A DNA stretch of 34,961 bases from a virus. The translations under genes and the position numbers were made by a program. Position 1 is the first letter of the stretch. Each line of letters starts with the position of its first letter. Shown piece by piece: positions 6,290-11,691 of the stretch. The DNA lies in IMG/VR virus record IMGVR_UViG_3300025896_000087, positions 1-34,961 of that record. The stretch is one strand, 5' to 3'. A model generated the notes under the pieces. The model was not told the DNA's origin. It saw only the letters and a program-made list of their open reading frames with translations, and ran no database searches.

Positions 6290-6603
6290 GATACGCGAGA
6301 CGCCGAGACGGAAACGACAGCGAGGTCGGGCAAGCCCTGACGGCGGCAGGGTTTACCGTCCACGACTTTGCCGGGGCAGGTTATGTTCCCGATAGGCTTG
6401 TTACTCGCCCGCTTCCTGACGGGCGGCTCTGGGTGTGTTGGGTAGAGATCAAGGTCAAGGACGGCAAACTACGCCCTAGCCAAGAGAAATTCGCCGAGAT
6501 ATTTGAACCTCGGGGAGAGTTCTACGTCGCCCGTGACGCAAAGGTCGCAGTGATAGAACTTATCGGTCGCTGGCTGGAGGCGTGTGGCCCTCAAGAGGGC
6601 TAA
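6286..6603 (+). CDS. VRR-NUC-like nuclease
   Basis: 105 aa from ATG 6286, chosen because it overlaps the stop of the 39-aa gene (ATGA). The same frame stays open upstream to 6175 but carries no conserved sequence there. After R-Y-A-R-R-R-D-G-N-D-S-E-V, a D-R-L-V-T-R-P segment precedes C-W-V-E-I-K-V-K-D-G-K-L-R-P-S-Q-E-K-F. The E-I-K followed by S-x-x-Q is the VRR-NUC/PD-(D/E)XK signature found in small phage Holliday-junction-resolvase-like nucleases. Likely role: structure-specific DNA cleavage during recombination or packaging. Its 3' end overlaps, tail to tail, the opposite-strand methyltransferase by 44 bases. Confidence 0.75.
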   Translation: MRYARRRDGNDSEVGQALTAAGFTVHDFAGAGYVPDRLVTRPLPDGRLWVCWVEIKVKDGKLRPSQEKFAEIFEPRGEFYVARDAKVAVIELIGRWLEACGPQEG

Positions 6604-7114
6604 CCAATACCCAGAACCCCGGCCCCATGAGCCGGTGCGCCTGTAGGTGCAAAATCTCAAACCGCTTGCAGAGGTGCGGGAGCCACCAAGAGGGCGGGGC
6701 TTGGATCAGGTGGGCGTTCCTGCCGTCCGATAACACCTTGACCGCCGCCCCGGTATGGATACTGAAAAAACCATAACGCTTAACGATACGCATTAACTCG
6801 TCCAACACGGCATCTAGGCGATCTGGCTCTATGTGTTCCAACACGTCAATGCAGCACACAAGGTCGGCTGACTGTGGCTCACCGTACTCGGGGAACGCCG
6901 GGTCGTAGGCAGAATACGCAATCTCCAGTTTCTCGGCTTCCAGCGCCTTGCGGAGATTTTGCTTACCCGCCCCGTAATCGTGGAGCGACTGCCATTTGTT
7001 GTTACGCAGTAGTTCCGCAACAAGAGGCGCAAAGGCAATAGACGCCACGCCATAGTTGGGGTTCATGTGCAATTTGACTTGTTCTTGGCGGTATTCGTCA
7101 GAAATCGTGTCCAT
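6560..7114 (-). CDS. Class I SAM-dependent methyltransferase-like protein
   Basis: 184 aa on the minus strand inside an otherwise plus-strand block, from ATG 7114 with AAGG about 8 bases upstream. Motif I appears as L-H-D-Y-G-A-G-K-Q-N-L near residue 45, and the post-motif segment is V-C-C-I-D-V-L-E-H-I-E-P near residue 90, as in Rossmann-fold methyltransferases of the Methyltransf_11/23 type. The substrate is unknown. An isolated reversed gene suggests a later insertion (moron) with its own promoter. A palindromic GCTATAGC lies in the 60-base divergent gap to the next gene but gives no clear promoter by eye. Confidence 0.75.
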   Translation of the reverse strand: MDTISDEYRQEQVKLHMNPNYGVASIAFAPLVAELLRNNKWQSLHDYGAGKQNLRKALEAEKLEIAYSAYDPAFPEYGEPQSADLVCCIDVLEHIEPDRLDAVLDELMRIVKRYGFFSIHTGAAVKVLSDGRNAHLIQAPPSWWLPHLCKRFEILHLQAHRLMGPGFWVLVSPLEGHTPPASDR

Positions 7115-7174
7115 GTTGCAACCTTATCACAAACGCTATAGCCTCGGAATGAAGCCTATTCTTGGGGTAATTCC

Positions 7175-7330
7175 ATGCCTGACACTCGCAAAGATAAACT
7201 GATGGCGGCGCTTGATGCGTTGGATGACGACAACGAAGCGCACGAAAAGGCCGAGGAAAAGGACGAGGACGAGGGCAAGAAGCCCAAGCGGAAGGCCAAG
7301 AAATCCAAACTCTACGAGATGATGCAGTAA
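7175..7330 (+). CDS. Short highly charged protein
   Basis: 51 aa, ATG 7175, GGGG about 8 bases upstream; TAA overlaps the next ATG (TAATG). An acidic middle (D-D-D-N-E-A-H-E-K-A-E-E-K-D-E-D-E) is followed by a basic run (K-K-P-K-R-K-A-K-K-S-K) and a short Y-E-M-M-Q end. Likely disordered, possibly nucleic-acid-binding. No family recognised. Confidence 0.55.
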   Translation: MPDTRKDKLMAALDALDDDNEAHEKAEEKDEDEGKKPKRKAKKSKLYEMMQ

Positions 7331-7698
7331 TGGCAAGCCACGACAAGTCAGCCGCGCTATTCGTTGTGACGATGTTTCACAGCGCCACGGTCACGCACCT
7401 TCAGCACCTTGCCACCAAGTCCTACGCTCAGCACAAGGCACTTGGGCATTACTACGAGGCCATCGTTGACCTTGTGGACGCATGGGCCGAGGCGTATCAG
7501 GGCCGCTATGGCCTGATCCCGAACTACTCCATGGAAGCGCATTTCAGCAAAGAGCCAAAAGCCTACGCCGACAAACTGCTGGAGTTCCTTGACGAAATCC
7601 GCAACGTCCTTCCAAAAGACCCCGAACTCGTCAACCTGTTTGATGCGGTCGTGGACGAAGTGTTGTCTCTACGCTACAAACTGACCAACCTTTCGTGA
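7330..7698 (+). CDS. DUF5856-like helical protein
   Basis: 122 aa, starting in a TAATG overlap with the charged small gene. The run A-L-F-V-V-T-M-F-H-S-A-T-V-T-H-L-Q-H-L-A, then S-Y-A-Q-H-K-A-L-G-H-Y-Y-E-A-I-V-D-L-V-D, matches the DUF5856 family found in aquatic phages. It is all helical, with His/Glu spacing like ferritin/Dps four-helix bundles. Whether it binds iron or DNA is unknown. It precedes the morphogenesis block by one base, which suggests co-transcription with virion genes. Confidence 0.75.
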   Translation: MASHDKSAALFVVTMFHSATVTHLQHLATKSYAQHKALGHYYEAIVDLVDAWAEAYQGRYGLIPNYSMEAHFSKEPKAYADKLLEFLDEIRNVLPKDPELVNLFDAVVDEVLSLRYKLTNLS

Positions 7699-7699
7699 T

Positions 7700-9154
7700 A
7701 TGGCGGCTGATCGCAACAGACTTGCTGCTGCGTTAGCGTACGAGCAGGAACGCCGACGGCGGCTGGCAGAGGTTGTCCCAACGCCCGGCCCGGTCACGGC
7801 TGCACCAACCTCGCCAAACCTCCGACGCGACCTAGAGAACCTGTCCATTGGCTTTGGTGAAGGCATCACCAACCAGTTGGAAGGGCTAAAGGGCATCGTG
7901 ACCGACCCTATCGGATCGGCTAAAGCGGGCTACGAAACCGTTAAAGGCGTTGTGCGCGACCCGTCCGTGTTAGCCGAAGCCCTACGCCAAACAGGCCAGA
8001 AAGCGATGAGCGGCCCGTTGGGAGCGGGTGAGGTCATTGGCGAGATGGTCAATCCAATAAGAAGTGGCGGCGTTGGGAAACGGGACATTTTTATTGGTGA
8101 AAACGCAAGAACTTGGGACGCTGCCGCCGCCAAACGTGCCGAGGAAATGGAAGCGGCTGGGATAGACCCGGAAACAATTTGGCGCGAAACAGGCACCTTC
8201 CGAGCGCCTGATAATCGGTTACGGCAAGAAATTAGCGATGTTGGCGCACGATTGGCACAAGAATCGGAAACAGGGTTGCCAGCAAATGTGGCTTTTGAGC
8301 ATCCCGGCGGGCTGTACGAGGCATATCCCGAAATCGGTCAGCAAACCACTATTCGCACAAAGCAAGCATTAGAAGGCAGGGCAACTGGCGCTTACAATCG
8401 GAACACTCAATCAGTAATGTTCGGAGAGTCAGCCCCGCAATCACCGGACGATCTAACCTCAATTGGGCTGCATGAACTTCAGCACGCCGTTCAGCATAGA
8501 GAAGACTTTGGCCGGGGCGGGATGCCAGCACTTGCGCGTAGGTTTTTACAAGAAGATATGCAACGTCGGTATGCCCCATATTCAAGTGATTTGGGACAAA
8601 GAAGCAGGGCAAGCGCGTTAAGTGGTGCCGCTTACCGGGCGCAGTACGCGCAACACTTGGAAAATTTGCAACGGAAAGACAACATCAAGCCGCGTCAACT
8701 AACCAGAATGTCAGATTGGTATAAGTACGGTTCTGAAATTTCACGACAAATGGCAGAGGACGGATATGGGTGGCAGATGCCCGCGAAGGCAGGGCCAAAC
8801 CGTGATTTCTGGATTAAAGGCGCTGTACGCCGTATGCAACGTATGATTGAAGCCGATCGCCCAGACATGCGAAACGCAGCGGAAATTATGCCGCCGGAAG
8901 AAGCGAAAAAAATTCTGCGGAAAACCGATAAAGTGTTTAGAAAGACGCAGGAAAGCGCAATTGCGGCTGGAAAAATTGACGACCTAAAACGCACGTTAGA
9001 GGAAAAATCGGATTACGAATTGTATCGCCGGTTAGGGGGCGAAGCAGAGGCGTTTTTAGTAGAAAAGCGAAGGAACCTTACCCCGCAACAACGGCGAGAA
9101 ACATTCCCCCAATATGATGTTCCGCTAAACGAAATTATTATTACTCGCAGATAG
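7700..9154 (+). CDS. Mosaic virion-type protein with LPD23/HExxH metallopeptidase-like region
   Basis: 484 aa from ATG 7700, one base after the previous stop. Residues 1-118 are an amphipathic, Gly/Ala-rich segment (F-G-E-G-I-T-N-Q-L-E-G-L-K-G-I, then P-L-G-A-G-E-V-I-G-E-M) like the N-terminal carriers of phage internal virion proteins. From about residue 128 the protein changes: R-T-W-D-A-A-A-A-K-R-A-E-E-M, W-R-E-T-G-T-F-R, and an H-E-L-Q-H zincin-like site at residues 258-262. This is the arrangement of LPD23-type large polyvalent protein domains. Codons also become more A/T-ended from about 8050, supporting domain acquisition. It may be an injected enzyme; proteolysis is inferred only from H-E-x-x-H. 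Confidence 0.7.
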   Translation: MAADRNRLAAALAYEQERRRRLAEVVPTPGPVTAAPTSPNLRRDLENLSIGFGEGITNQLEGLKGIVTDPIGSAKAGYETVKGVVRDPSVLAEALRQTGQKAMSGPLGAGEVIGEMVNPIRSGGVGKRDIFIGENARTWDAAAAKRAEEMEAAGIDPETIWRETGTFRAPDNRLRQEISDVGARLAQESETGLPANVAFEHPGGLYEAYPEIGQQTTIRTKQALEGRATGAYNRNTQSVMFGESAPQSPDDLTSIGLHELQHAVQHREDFGRGGMPALARRFLQEDMQRRYAPYSSDLGQRSRASALSGAAYRAQYAQHLENLQRKDNIKPRQLTRMSDWYKYGSEISRQMAEDGYGWQMPAKAGPNRDFWIKGAVRRMQRMIEADRPDMRNAAEIMPPEEAKKILRKTDKVFRKTQESAIAAGKIDDLKRTLEEKSDYELYRRLGGEAEAFLVEKRRNLTPQQRRETFPQYDVPLNEIIITRR

Positions 9155-9156
9155 TT

Positions 9157-9324
9157 ATGCCTAGCACTTCCGACAAACAACGACGGTTCATGGCTGCGGC
9201 GGCACACGACCCCGCTTTCGCTAAACGGGTAGGCATACCTCAGAGTGTAGCCAAGGACTTCAACCAAGCCGACAAAGGCAAGAAACTTGCGGCAGCCATG
9301 CGCAATATGCCGAAGAAGGGCTAA
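9157..9324 (+). CDS. Short basic conserved phage protein
   Basis: 55 aa from ATG 9157 to a TAA that overlaps the next ATG (TAATG). The sequence M-P-S-T-S-D-K-Q-R-R-F-M-A-A-A-A-H-D-P-A-F-A-K then G-I-P-Q-S-V-A-K-D-F and a basic tail is a pattern found in many small phage proteins near packaging genes. No enzymatic motif; possibly DNA-associated. Confidence 0.65.
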   Translation: MPSTSDKQRRFMAAAAHDPAFAKRVGIPQSVAKDFNQADKGKKLAAAMRNMPKKG

Positions 9325-9953
9325 TGATTCGCGCGCTGACGCTTTGGTATGTCTATGAACTGATAGACCCTAGATCGGGCGAGGTTTTTTACGTCGGCAA
9401 AGGGAAAGGAAACCGCATAGACGAACACGAAAAGGAAGCGCAAAACGGGTATCCCTCGTACAAATGCAACAAAATTAGGTCTATCTGGGAAGATGGGCAC
9501 GAAATCATTAAGCAAAAGGTTGCCGAGTTCTGGGACGAAGATGCCGCATACGAACATGAGGAAGAACGGATTGTCAGCATAGGGTTAGACAACCTGACAA
9601 ACATCACGGGTGGCGGAAAACGCAAGCCAACCCCATATCAAGTACCGAAAAAGGGAAAATCTAAAGGCAAGCGATGGATATCAAAAGCCGCCCTGCAAGA
9701 CGTTACTTGTTGGAAGATCGTGCGTGGGTGGACAGGCTGGGTTGCTGCTTGGTTAAAAAGACCGAACCCAACAGACGTATTGACGGTCACATCCCCATCA
9801 GCATTGACGAAAGTTGCGACTGAAGGCTTGGTAAACAAACTAATTCCTGCCGCAATAAAGCATTTAAGTGAAAACCCTAAAAACCATCCAGAACTGATAG
9901 AATTGTTGCGTCCTTGGAACATTGAATTAAGATTTGAGCGAATTGAATCGTGA
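9324..9953 (+). CDS. GIY-YIG nuclease (possible homing-type)
   Basis: 209 aa, TAATG-coupled. The N-terminus W-Y-V-Y-E-L-I-D-P-R-S-G-E-V-F-Y-V-G-K-G-K-G-N-R carries the GIY-YIG equivalents (Y-V-Y and Y-V-G). It is followed by an H-E-K-E helix, K-I-R-S-I-W, a conserved Glu in E-E-E-R-I, and L-T-N-I-T-G-G-G, as in the LEM-3-like subgroup. The C-terminal 100 residues are a basic, less conserved region probably used for DNA recognition. It lies directly before the terminase genes, a common site for phage homing nucleases, and is more A/T-rich than the terminase. GTGA overlap possibilities at its end tie it to the small terminase gene. Confidence 0.8.
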   Translation: MIRALTLWYVYELIDPRSGEVFYVGKGKGNRIDEHEKEAQNGYPSYKCNKIRSIWEDGHEIIKQKVAEFWDEDAAYEHEEERIVSIGLDNLTNITGGGKRKPTPYQVPKKGKSKGKRWISKAALQDVTCWKIVRGWTGWVAAWLKRPNPTDVLTVTSPSALTKVATEGLVNKLIPAAIKHLSENPKNHPELIELLRPWNIELRFERIES

Positions 9954-9955
9954 CA

Positions 9956-10363
9956 ATGGCTAAACGCGCACAAACACGGGTAAGCGAACGCACCGGGTTG
10001 CCAAAACAAGGGCATCAAGGTGAGGGGGGTGGACGGCCCCCTTTTGAGATCAATTACGATGACGTTGAACGCCTCGGTAAAATGAAATGCACGCAGGAGG
10101 AAATCGCTGCATTTCTCGGGTGCAGCGTTGATACGTTGACGCGGGACGAAAAGTTTTGCGGCATATATAAAAGAGCAATGGAGAACGGCAAGATGTCGTT
10201 GCGCCGTCGCCAATGGGAGGCAGCCGAGGCTGGCAATACGACCATGCTTGTATGGCTAGGAAAGCAGTATCTCGGACAGCGCGACAAACAGGAGGTCACG
10301 GGCGAAAACGGTGGCCCCCAGAAAACAGAACAAGTAATCCGTTGGGGCAAGCCGATTGACTGA
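9956..10363 (+). CDS. terS: Terminase small subunit (TerS)
   Basis: 135 aa from ATG 9956; a GTG at 9950 sharing GTGA with the nuclease stop is an alternative. A basic Gly/Pro-rich N-terminus (G-G-G-R-P-P-F) leads to a helix-turn-helix K-C-T-Q-E-E-I-A-A-F-L-G-C-S-V-D-T-L-T-R, then a helical M-S-L-R-R-R-Q-W-E-A-A-E and M-L-V-W-L-G-K-Q-Y-L-G-Q-R-D, the usual end of phage small terminases. It recognises the packaging site and loads the large subunit, whose gene starts in its last codons. Position and domain order make the assignment good. Confidence 0.85.
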   Translation: MAKRAQTRVSERTGLPKQGHQGEGGGRPPFEINYDDVERLGKMKCTQEEIAAFLGCSVDTLTRDEKFCGIYKRAMENGKMSLRRRQWEAAEAGNTTMLVWLGKQYLGQRDKQEVTGENGGPQKTEQVIRWGKPID

Positions 10364-11691
10364 CATCCTGCTGCCCTACAACCCTCGGCGGGCTTTCCTG
10401 CCGTTTCACGATAGGAGCAAGCGGTGGGCGTGTTTAGTCGCCCACCGCCGCAGGTGCGGGTAAAACCGTAGCAGCCGTCAACGACATCATTCGGGCAGCC
10501 GCGATGTACCAAGCCCCCAATGGGCTATTCGGCTACGTCGCCCCCTACCAGAACCAAGCACGGCGTATCGCCTTTGACTATTTCAAGTATTACTCCGCGC
10601 CGATTGCGAGAGAAGTCAACGAAACGTTGATGATGATTACGCTAACCAATGGGGCCAAGATCGGCCTATTTGGAGCAGACAACGCAGATGCAATGCGCGG
10701 CCTTGGTTTCTCGGGCCTGTATCTTGACGAGTACGGTGACTTCAAACCGAGCGTATTCGGGAACGTCTTGAGAGCGTCTCTGTCAGACAAGCAAGGATGG
10801 TGCGTTTTCGCGGGTACGCCAAAGGGCAAGAATCAGTTTTGGCAAATATATCAGACCGCCCAACGCAGCCCCGAGGAATGGTTCCTGTTGCGCCTACCGG
10901 CAAGTCAGTCCCGGCTACTCCCGGAATCGGAGTTAGCCGCCGCTAGAGCGCAGTTGACCGAGGATCAGTACCTACAGGAGTACGAGTGCAGTTTTGAGGC
11001 TGCCATCCTCGGTGCTTTTTACGGGCGAGAGTTGCGCGAGGCGCAGGATCAAGGCCGTATCGGCTTTGTCCCCGTGGACGAGCATTTACCTGTACATACC
11101 GCATGGGACTTGGGCTACAAGGACGACACCGCGTGCTGGTTCTATCAGGTCGTGGGCGGTGAGATTCACCTCGTGGACTTCTTCAGCATCTCGGGTGCGT
11201 CCATCGCTGACCTCGCGGGCATCATCCGTGACCGAGGATACCGATACGGCAAGCATTGGCTCCCGCATGACGCCAAGGCCAAGACGCTCGCATCAGGCGG
11301 CAAAAGCATCATTGAGCAGTTAGCCGAGTTCCTCGGGATCAGCAAACTTGCCATCGTGCCTGACCTCTCGGTGCAGGACGGTATCCAAGCGGTACGTCAG
11401 ATGCTCCCACGAGTATGGTTTGACAAACGCTGTGAAGATGGTATTGAAGCCTTGAGGCAATATCAGCGAGAATACGACGAGGACAAAAAGGCGTTTCGGC
11501 ATACACCTCGTCACGACTGGACGAGTCACCCTGCTGATGCCTTTCGGATGTTAGCGATTGCGTGGCGACAAGAGCCGACGAATGTCACCCCGCTGGAACC
11601 GAAGGCGTTGATCGTCGGGCCGCAAAATCAGGTCACCCTTAACGATATGTGGGCGGCGCATGACCGTTCGCCCCGGAGAGCGAGAATATGA
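10356..11691 (+). CDS. terL: Terminase large subunit, reading frame broken by a +1 shift in Walker A
   Basis: Packaging ATPase/nuclease. The first part reads from TTG 10356 (L-T-D-I-L-L-P-Y-N-P-R-R-A-F-L-P-F-H) to A-H-R-R-R-C-G and meets TAA at 10461-10463. Skipping one base there restores K-T-V-A-A-V-N-D and runs on to 11691, for about 444 aa in total. The join rebuilds the Walker A motif R-R-x-C-G-K-T exactly. Walker B is L-Y-L-D-E at about residues 121-125, and nuclease aspartates lie in T-A-W-D-L-G (about 251) and H-P-A-D-A-F (about 394). Without the N-terminal piece the downstream ORF (ATG 10504) has no Walker A. Explanations: one extra G in GGG (sequencing error or real mutation), or programmed +1 frameshifting at GGG-TAA. 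Confidence 0.85.

Follow-up and report, generated by a model that had tools for sequence, protein, structure and literature searches.

How can a virus make a working large terminase (TerL) from a gene that is interrupted inside the coding sequence of its Walker A motif? The window, that is the whole stretch of DNA analysed here, comes from IMG/VR, where it is a linear virus record 34,961 bases long; terS, terL and all features within them lie on the plus strand. The terminase small subunit gene (terS, 9950–10363, PHROG 309) is followed by the 5' part of terL (10356–10451), which starts at a TTG overlapping the terS stop and ends at the codon we propose as a take-off site. Frame 0 from the TTG at 10356 reads ...RWACLVAHRRRCG and then meets a TAA at 10461–10463, and a second frame is open from GGT AAA ACC at 10459 to 11691, its protein beginning GKTVAAVND. 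The 5' part reads LTDILLPYNPRRAFLPFHDRSKRWACLVAHRR, as in intact relatives, and the peptide of the ~31 codons preceding the proposed take-off is a normal TerL N-terminus, whilst the protein encoded downstream has matches to Terminase_6N and Terminase_6C in Pfam and to PHROG large terminases. An earlier note on this DNA had described a large terminase split at Walker A between two such frames, both of which we see, and had remarked that the downstream frame has no Walker A of its own. This is borne out: the GKT frame contains an in-frame TAG at 10435–10437 with no start codon between it and GKT, so the downstream frame alone cannot make Walker A, and the longest listed open-reading frame of the window is without the motif.

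Alignment to intact relatives locates the interruption precisely, the window reading CGC CGC (RR), AGGT, then GCG GGT AAA ACC (A-G-K-T). What appears as +1 in the window comes from a 4-nt insert that precedes the Walker A glycine by one codon, with no extra G in the GGG run. This insert, AGGT (10452–10455), is a gap in the coding sequence that intact relatives do not have; its last three bases, GGT, form the proposed landing triplet, and the 3' part of terL (10456–11691) resumes with GCG (A) and GGT AAA ACC (GKT) and continues through the remaining ATPase and nuclease. Amongst 80 relatives of the downstream protein collected from viral contigs, most have an unbroken AHRRA|GKT and seven carry the same interruption (protein identity 93%, 73% and 72%). 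With further inserted genes gathered by pattern scans and by a search with a neighbouring HNH protein, the interruption was found in ~60 contigs from many samples, 43 of them non-redundant, all being metagenomic contigs from uncultured viruses of bacteria. Its occurrence in so many other contigs rules out chance and assembly error alike.

The inserts differ in length but not in place. In all 43 genes they separate the second arginine codon from GCN, and they measure 4 nt in 24 genes (AGGT, TAGT, TAGA), 5 nt in 13 (AGGGT, AAGGT, TAAGT, TAGGT), 6 nt in one and 7 nt in five (AAACCGT, AGATCGT). The single 6-nt insert, TAATGT directly after CGA in L264, is in frame, yet it starts with UAA. Taking out the insert, whatever its length, yields AHRRAGKT and an uninterrupted Walker A, and the distance from RR to GKT shows no length change in 54 intact relatives. 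A stop (TAG or TAA) stands directly after the take-off codon in seven of the 43 genes, from several lineages, the others having AGG, AAG, AAA or AGA there. Gaps that share one position but span 4, 5, 6 (UAA included) or 7 nt go beyond simple frame retention, and a single frameshift cannot serve all classes; ribosomal bypass, which can skip a gap of any length or frame at one point, fits best.

The codons bordering the gap are also restricted. The proposed take-off codon, CGC (Arg) at 10449–10451 in the window, is CGU, CGC or CGA in 43 of 43 inserted genes and never CGG, AGA or AGG, codons that occupy this place in 8 of 54 intact genes (p 0.008, kinship ignored). The insert ends in NGT in 42 of 43 genes and in AGA in the remaining one, the landing triplet before the resume codon being GGT in 32, CGT in five, AGT in four, TGT in one and AGA in one, G always being the second base and U or A the third. 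Take-off and landing match in full only in the 7-nt class (CGA to CGU) and would pair at two of three positions elsewhere; a full match, usual in bypassing, is not always needed (PMC5009743). A tRNA-Arg with anticodon ICG could re-pair with the landing triplet at two or three positions. No tRNA gene that could assist was found in the window.

Directly 5' of the take-off codon lies an element that accompanies the insert throughout the family. In the window it consists of AGGAG, an internal Shine-Dalgarno-like (SD) site at 10413–10417 able to pair with the anti-SD, and a 10-bp stem-loop at 10421–10448, GCGGTGGGCG-TGTTTAGT-CGCCCACCGC (arms 10421–10430 and 10439–10448, loop 10431–10438), with a fold z-score of -3.8 and only 0–1 of 200 shuffles as good or better. 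All inserted genes have an SD-like GGAG, AGGAG, GAGG or GAGGG a few bases 5' of a stem-loop with the consensus CGGTGGGC...GCYCACCG, which reaches the last arginine codon or stops one base short of it, so that a candidate stimulator in cis, as expected for bypassing, is present in 43 of 43. Anti-SD pairing reaches -5.9 kcal/mol or better in every one of these genes, against a median of 0.1 in the 54 intact genes, and L261 has GAGG where most have GGAG, which argues that complementarity to the anti-SD is kept rather than one word. Because some loci were found by patterns containing parts of the element, the association was also counted on sets without such patterns: SD and hairpin occur together in 3 of 3 inserted and 0 of 45 intact genes among the protein-found relatives, in 38 of 38 inserted genes from a scan that fixed neither SD nor stem codons beyond the protein, and in 48 of 48 inserted versus 1 of 47 intact genes of the tree set. 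Eight phylogenetically independent pairs all point in one direction (p ~0.008).

Comparison of codon usage shows that the element is constrained as nucleotide sequence. The fraction of identical codons within it is 0.71 in inserted versus 0.41 in intact genes, with the flanks before and after alike; CGG and CAC are each constant at 1.00 and GCC at 0.94, and the synonymous constraint is limited to the SD and stem-loop codons. The stem codons (Trp, Ala, His, Arg) leave little synonymous freedom for compensatory change. The hairpin sequence occurs in some intact terL genes too, and L214 has the complete SD-hairpin element without an insert whilst nested among 5-nt inserted relatives, possibly a precise loss of the insert. 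We also considered a second short hairpin, CCGC-AGGT-GCGG, with the insert as its loop; convincing as it looks in the window, neither L066 and L071 nor the other insert classes preserve it. Rfam gave no match in the window, and no copy of the SD-hairpin element was present in the phage genome collection.

Both halves of the split gene are under purifying selection. Between inserted genes the downstream part has dN/dS of 0.05–0.17 where dS can be estimated, its frames of 387–412 codons are open in all genes that a contig end does not truncate, and the protein sequence of the frame-0 part is conserved. Scored against a profile of intact TerL, the product of a hop over the insert reaches 221.2 bits, three products of a +1 shift 214.7–216.1 bits and a chain begun at the first ATG downstream 125 bits; the margin of 5–6 bits of hop over +1 is small and only supportive.

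The insert is further linked to a nuclease gene in the family. A profile search on genes with enough flank found terS and terL separated by an HNH_3 (PF13392) gene in 19 of 45 inserted and 0 of 43 intact cases (Fisher 3.6e-7). The gene is absent from the window and from 26 of the 45 inserted genes; amongst the independent pairs, 4–5 of 8 differ as expected and none in the opposite direction, which is not significant (p ~0.125). The 26 closest relatives of the HNH protein found in viral contigs (57–100% identity) all precede an inserted terL, and relatives below 50% identity have other locations. One of these, a more distant HNH gene (44%) at 2501–3060 of L273, stands directly upstream of an uninterrupted terL (HRRAGKT) and is an exception to the linkage. 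The window has another endonuclease gene just upstream of terS (9324–9953), a LEM-3-like GIY-YIG (PF22945, E 5e-14), with relatives in the same place before both intact (L010, L014) and inserted terL (L213, L228, L237). As it also stands beside intact terL it is not associated with the insert, and we rejected it as the linked nuclease. The genes upstream of terS (6560–9154 in the window, and the same region of relatives) vary between close relatives and include a minus-strand methyltransferase, an LPD23-domain protein, a ParB-like protein and other cargo, next to the packaging genes.

Inserted and intact alleles are interleaved in the TerL tree, a quick tree with SH-aLRT support only, in which well supported branches force at least eight changes. 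The sister of the window, L002, is intact and shares 99% protein identity in TerL. Compared with its close intact relatives L010 and L004, the window shows 93–100% identity on the terS side, 66–76% within 10380–10472 and at least 90% just after; such a drop flanked by high identity shows the exchange of a patch of ~95 nt, and the same patch separates the window from L002. The family resembles T4 mobA in that an endonuclease gene adjoins the gapped gene and inheritance is patchy with co-converted flanks.

From these comparisons of sequence we propose, with a probability of roughly three in four, that the Walker A region of this terL is a homing-cassette resistance allele tolerated by programmed bypass. 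The cassette, whole in relatives, would comprise the HNH_3 gene between terS and terL together with an altered 5' end of terL carrying the 4–7 nt insert. The HNH enzyme would cut the uninterrupted Walker A coding sequence, and the insert presumably destroys the target of the endonuclease and so protects the allele. Ribosomes would decode as far as the CGN (Arg) codon, where the peptidyl-tRNA would detach; the mRNA would then move by 4 nt in the window, and by 5, 6 or 7 nt in relatives, until the tRNA finds a new partner in the NGU triplet at the end of the insert, whereupon decoding would resume at GCN to give AHRRAGKT. By bypassing the insert in this way the ribosomes would let the phage keep an essential motor. 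With the hairpin folded, AGGAG may come to lie ~3–5 nt from the codon in the P site, and a forward move of 4–7 nt could ease the strain of this spacing.

Other ways of reading the locus differ either in how the ribosome passes the gap or in why the gap is there. The earlier note had proposed recoding, and recoding as the likely remedy stands, but not the form it gave it, a prfB-like +1 slip from GGG to GGT on GGG-TAA. Such a programmed +1 frameshift, which in the window and in relatives with 4-nt inserts would move the ribosome by one base on CGC, AGG or GGG ahead of the stop and give the P-loop one extra residue, draws on the fact that 4 nt equals +1 modulo 3 and on an SD-like site and following stop that recall prfB. 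We nevertheless judge it unlikely, as the 5-nt and 6-nt classes share the SD-hairpin element and the insertion point and need another shift or none, and 5-, 6- and 7-nt inserts at the same point in sister genes are beyond any single +1 slip; across related terL genes, moreover, GGG-TAA is not conserved, being AGG-TAA in L066 and L071, where a slip would lose the Walker A glycine. The constant RR to GKT distance of the 54 intact relatives, and the slightly poorer fit of +1 products to the intact profile, also argue against it. More improbable still is a TerL made as two chains, the first short and N-terminal, the second large and initiated internally from AGGAG and the GTG codons of the stem, for which there is a precedent in the T4 topoisomerase, split by an HNH insertion into genes 39 and 60 and working as two chains (PMC3014915), and for which the 5-nt class offers AGGAG-N6-GTG in frame with GKT. 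In the window and its close 4-nt relatives, however, a TAG or TAA shuts the GKT frame and none of the usual start codons follows it ahead of GKT; in L264 GKT is preceded by a stop and two codons. Internal starts would put unrelated residues (SPTAAGA, PPPKGA, TAEDRA) before GKT, and frame 0 conserves the AHRR sequence that forms the N-terminal half of Walker A. For the 5-nt genes themselves (L201–L203, L209–L225) an internal start giving MGVFS.PPPKGAGKT is possible besides the hop; reinitiation at the stem GTG, as a general account, fits this class only.

That terL is simply broken, whether as a pseudogene or through a mutated assembly or sequencing error, seems scarcely credible to us. Only metagenomic contigs carry the insert, neither an inserted terL of this pattern nor the hairpin occurring in bacterial genome contigs (GTDB), and the phage collection had no match for this stretch; against this stand the recurrence of the same site in independent contigs and the low dN/dS of long open frames downstream of it. 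The same observations speak against the two other possibilities raised in the earlier note, an extra G introduced by sequencing, where we find a 4-nt insert instead, and a disabling mutation. A real bypass that regulates terL, in the timing or dose of packaging, with the HNH gene an incidental neighbour, is a possibility we hold in greater regard than these, albeit a doubtful one: more than half of the inserted genes are without the HNH gene and the element persists there, and a role of this kind has been proposed for the putative phiHau3 terminase bypass (PMC5009743), yet the patchy, polymorphic distribution, the swapping of patches and the exclusive HNH linkage resemble homing more than conserved control.

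The inserted terL genes form a natural series of putative bypass sites, with gaps of four lengths and of several sequences, accompanied by intact sister alleles that share 99% protein identity and by a linked HNH gene, which makes both the requirements of a ribosome hop and the spread of such hops as by-products of homing directly testable. The T4 gene 60 bypass was called apparently unique to T4 in a 2010 review (PMC3014915), and we found no description of these inserted terL genes in the open-licence papers searched. Annotation pipelines will label such terminases as frameshifted or broken.

Amongst known systems, T4 mobA and gene 60 share with the inserted terL genes an HNH gene beside an essential phage gene with an untranslated insert absent from relatives, and help from a 5' stem-loop and an SD-like site. 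A 2011 paper from the Shub laboratory reportedly argued that mobA and the 50-nt sequence are one mobile cassette. Gene 60 has a 50-nt bypass beside the HNH gene mobA, the insert being thought protective against that nuclease (PMC5009743, PMC3014915); here the gap is 4–7 nt and the gene is terL, CGN take-off and NGU landing replace the matched GGA codons, the hairpin lies 5' of take-off with no visible hairpin in the gap, and there are dozens of natural variants rather than one phage. The terL of phiHau3 (L376, JX182369, 2602–2640) is likewise interrupted inside Walker A, at the same spot of an unrelated TerL, by a 10-nt insert, TTACTCCGGT, between GGC and AAG GAC of KGWG|KDP, with an HNH gene ~1.4 kb upstream. 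BroPlease (L378, ON526970) also has a 10-nt insert (pattern TTAC[TC]CCGGT), which is absent from Alsaber in our alignment; at this spot the annotations of BroPlease and of GreenWeasel divide the terminase into two genes. The gap in phiHau3 and BroPlease ends in GGT, plausibly readable by the tRNA of the preceding GGC. This system differs in its TerL branch, in its GGC to GGT codons and in a UUA codon within the gap, its putative bypass having been tied to UUA decoding (PMC5009743), and no SD-hairpin element of the present type was seen in it.

The likeness to prfB and other +1 sites lies in an SD-like site 5' of the shift and in forward movement, and an SD spacing of 3 nt, which favours forward slippage there (PMC5009743), is close to the looped-out spacing proposed here. 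The terL inserts depart from these sites in their multi-base gaps of several lengths, in the hairpin between SD and site and in that a stop is not required; GGG-TAA or AGG-TAA occurs only in part of the 4-nt class and the other classes need other shifts. In T4 genes 38 and 25 a hairpin between SD and AUG shortens the effective spacing, from 22 to 5 nt in gene 38 (PMC3014915), in the same manner as we propose between SD and codon, but in initiation and not elongation. The byps of Magnusiomyces capitatus mitochondria are also short bypassed inserts with take-off and landing not always matched, but they are mitochondrial and context independent (PMC5009743). Judged from sequence, the inserted terL family probably works like the T4 and phiHau3 systems and differs from them in gap length, in the rule for take-off and landing and in the SD-hairpin layout. 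On balance we lean towards regarding it as a new class of short, frame-independent bypass that is driven by an SD-hairpin-takeoff arrangement, re-pairs at two of three positions and is maintained within an essential phage gene as the mark of resistance belonging to an HNH homing cassette; on this view it has arisen more than once at the Walker A of TerL, here and independently in phiHau3.
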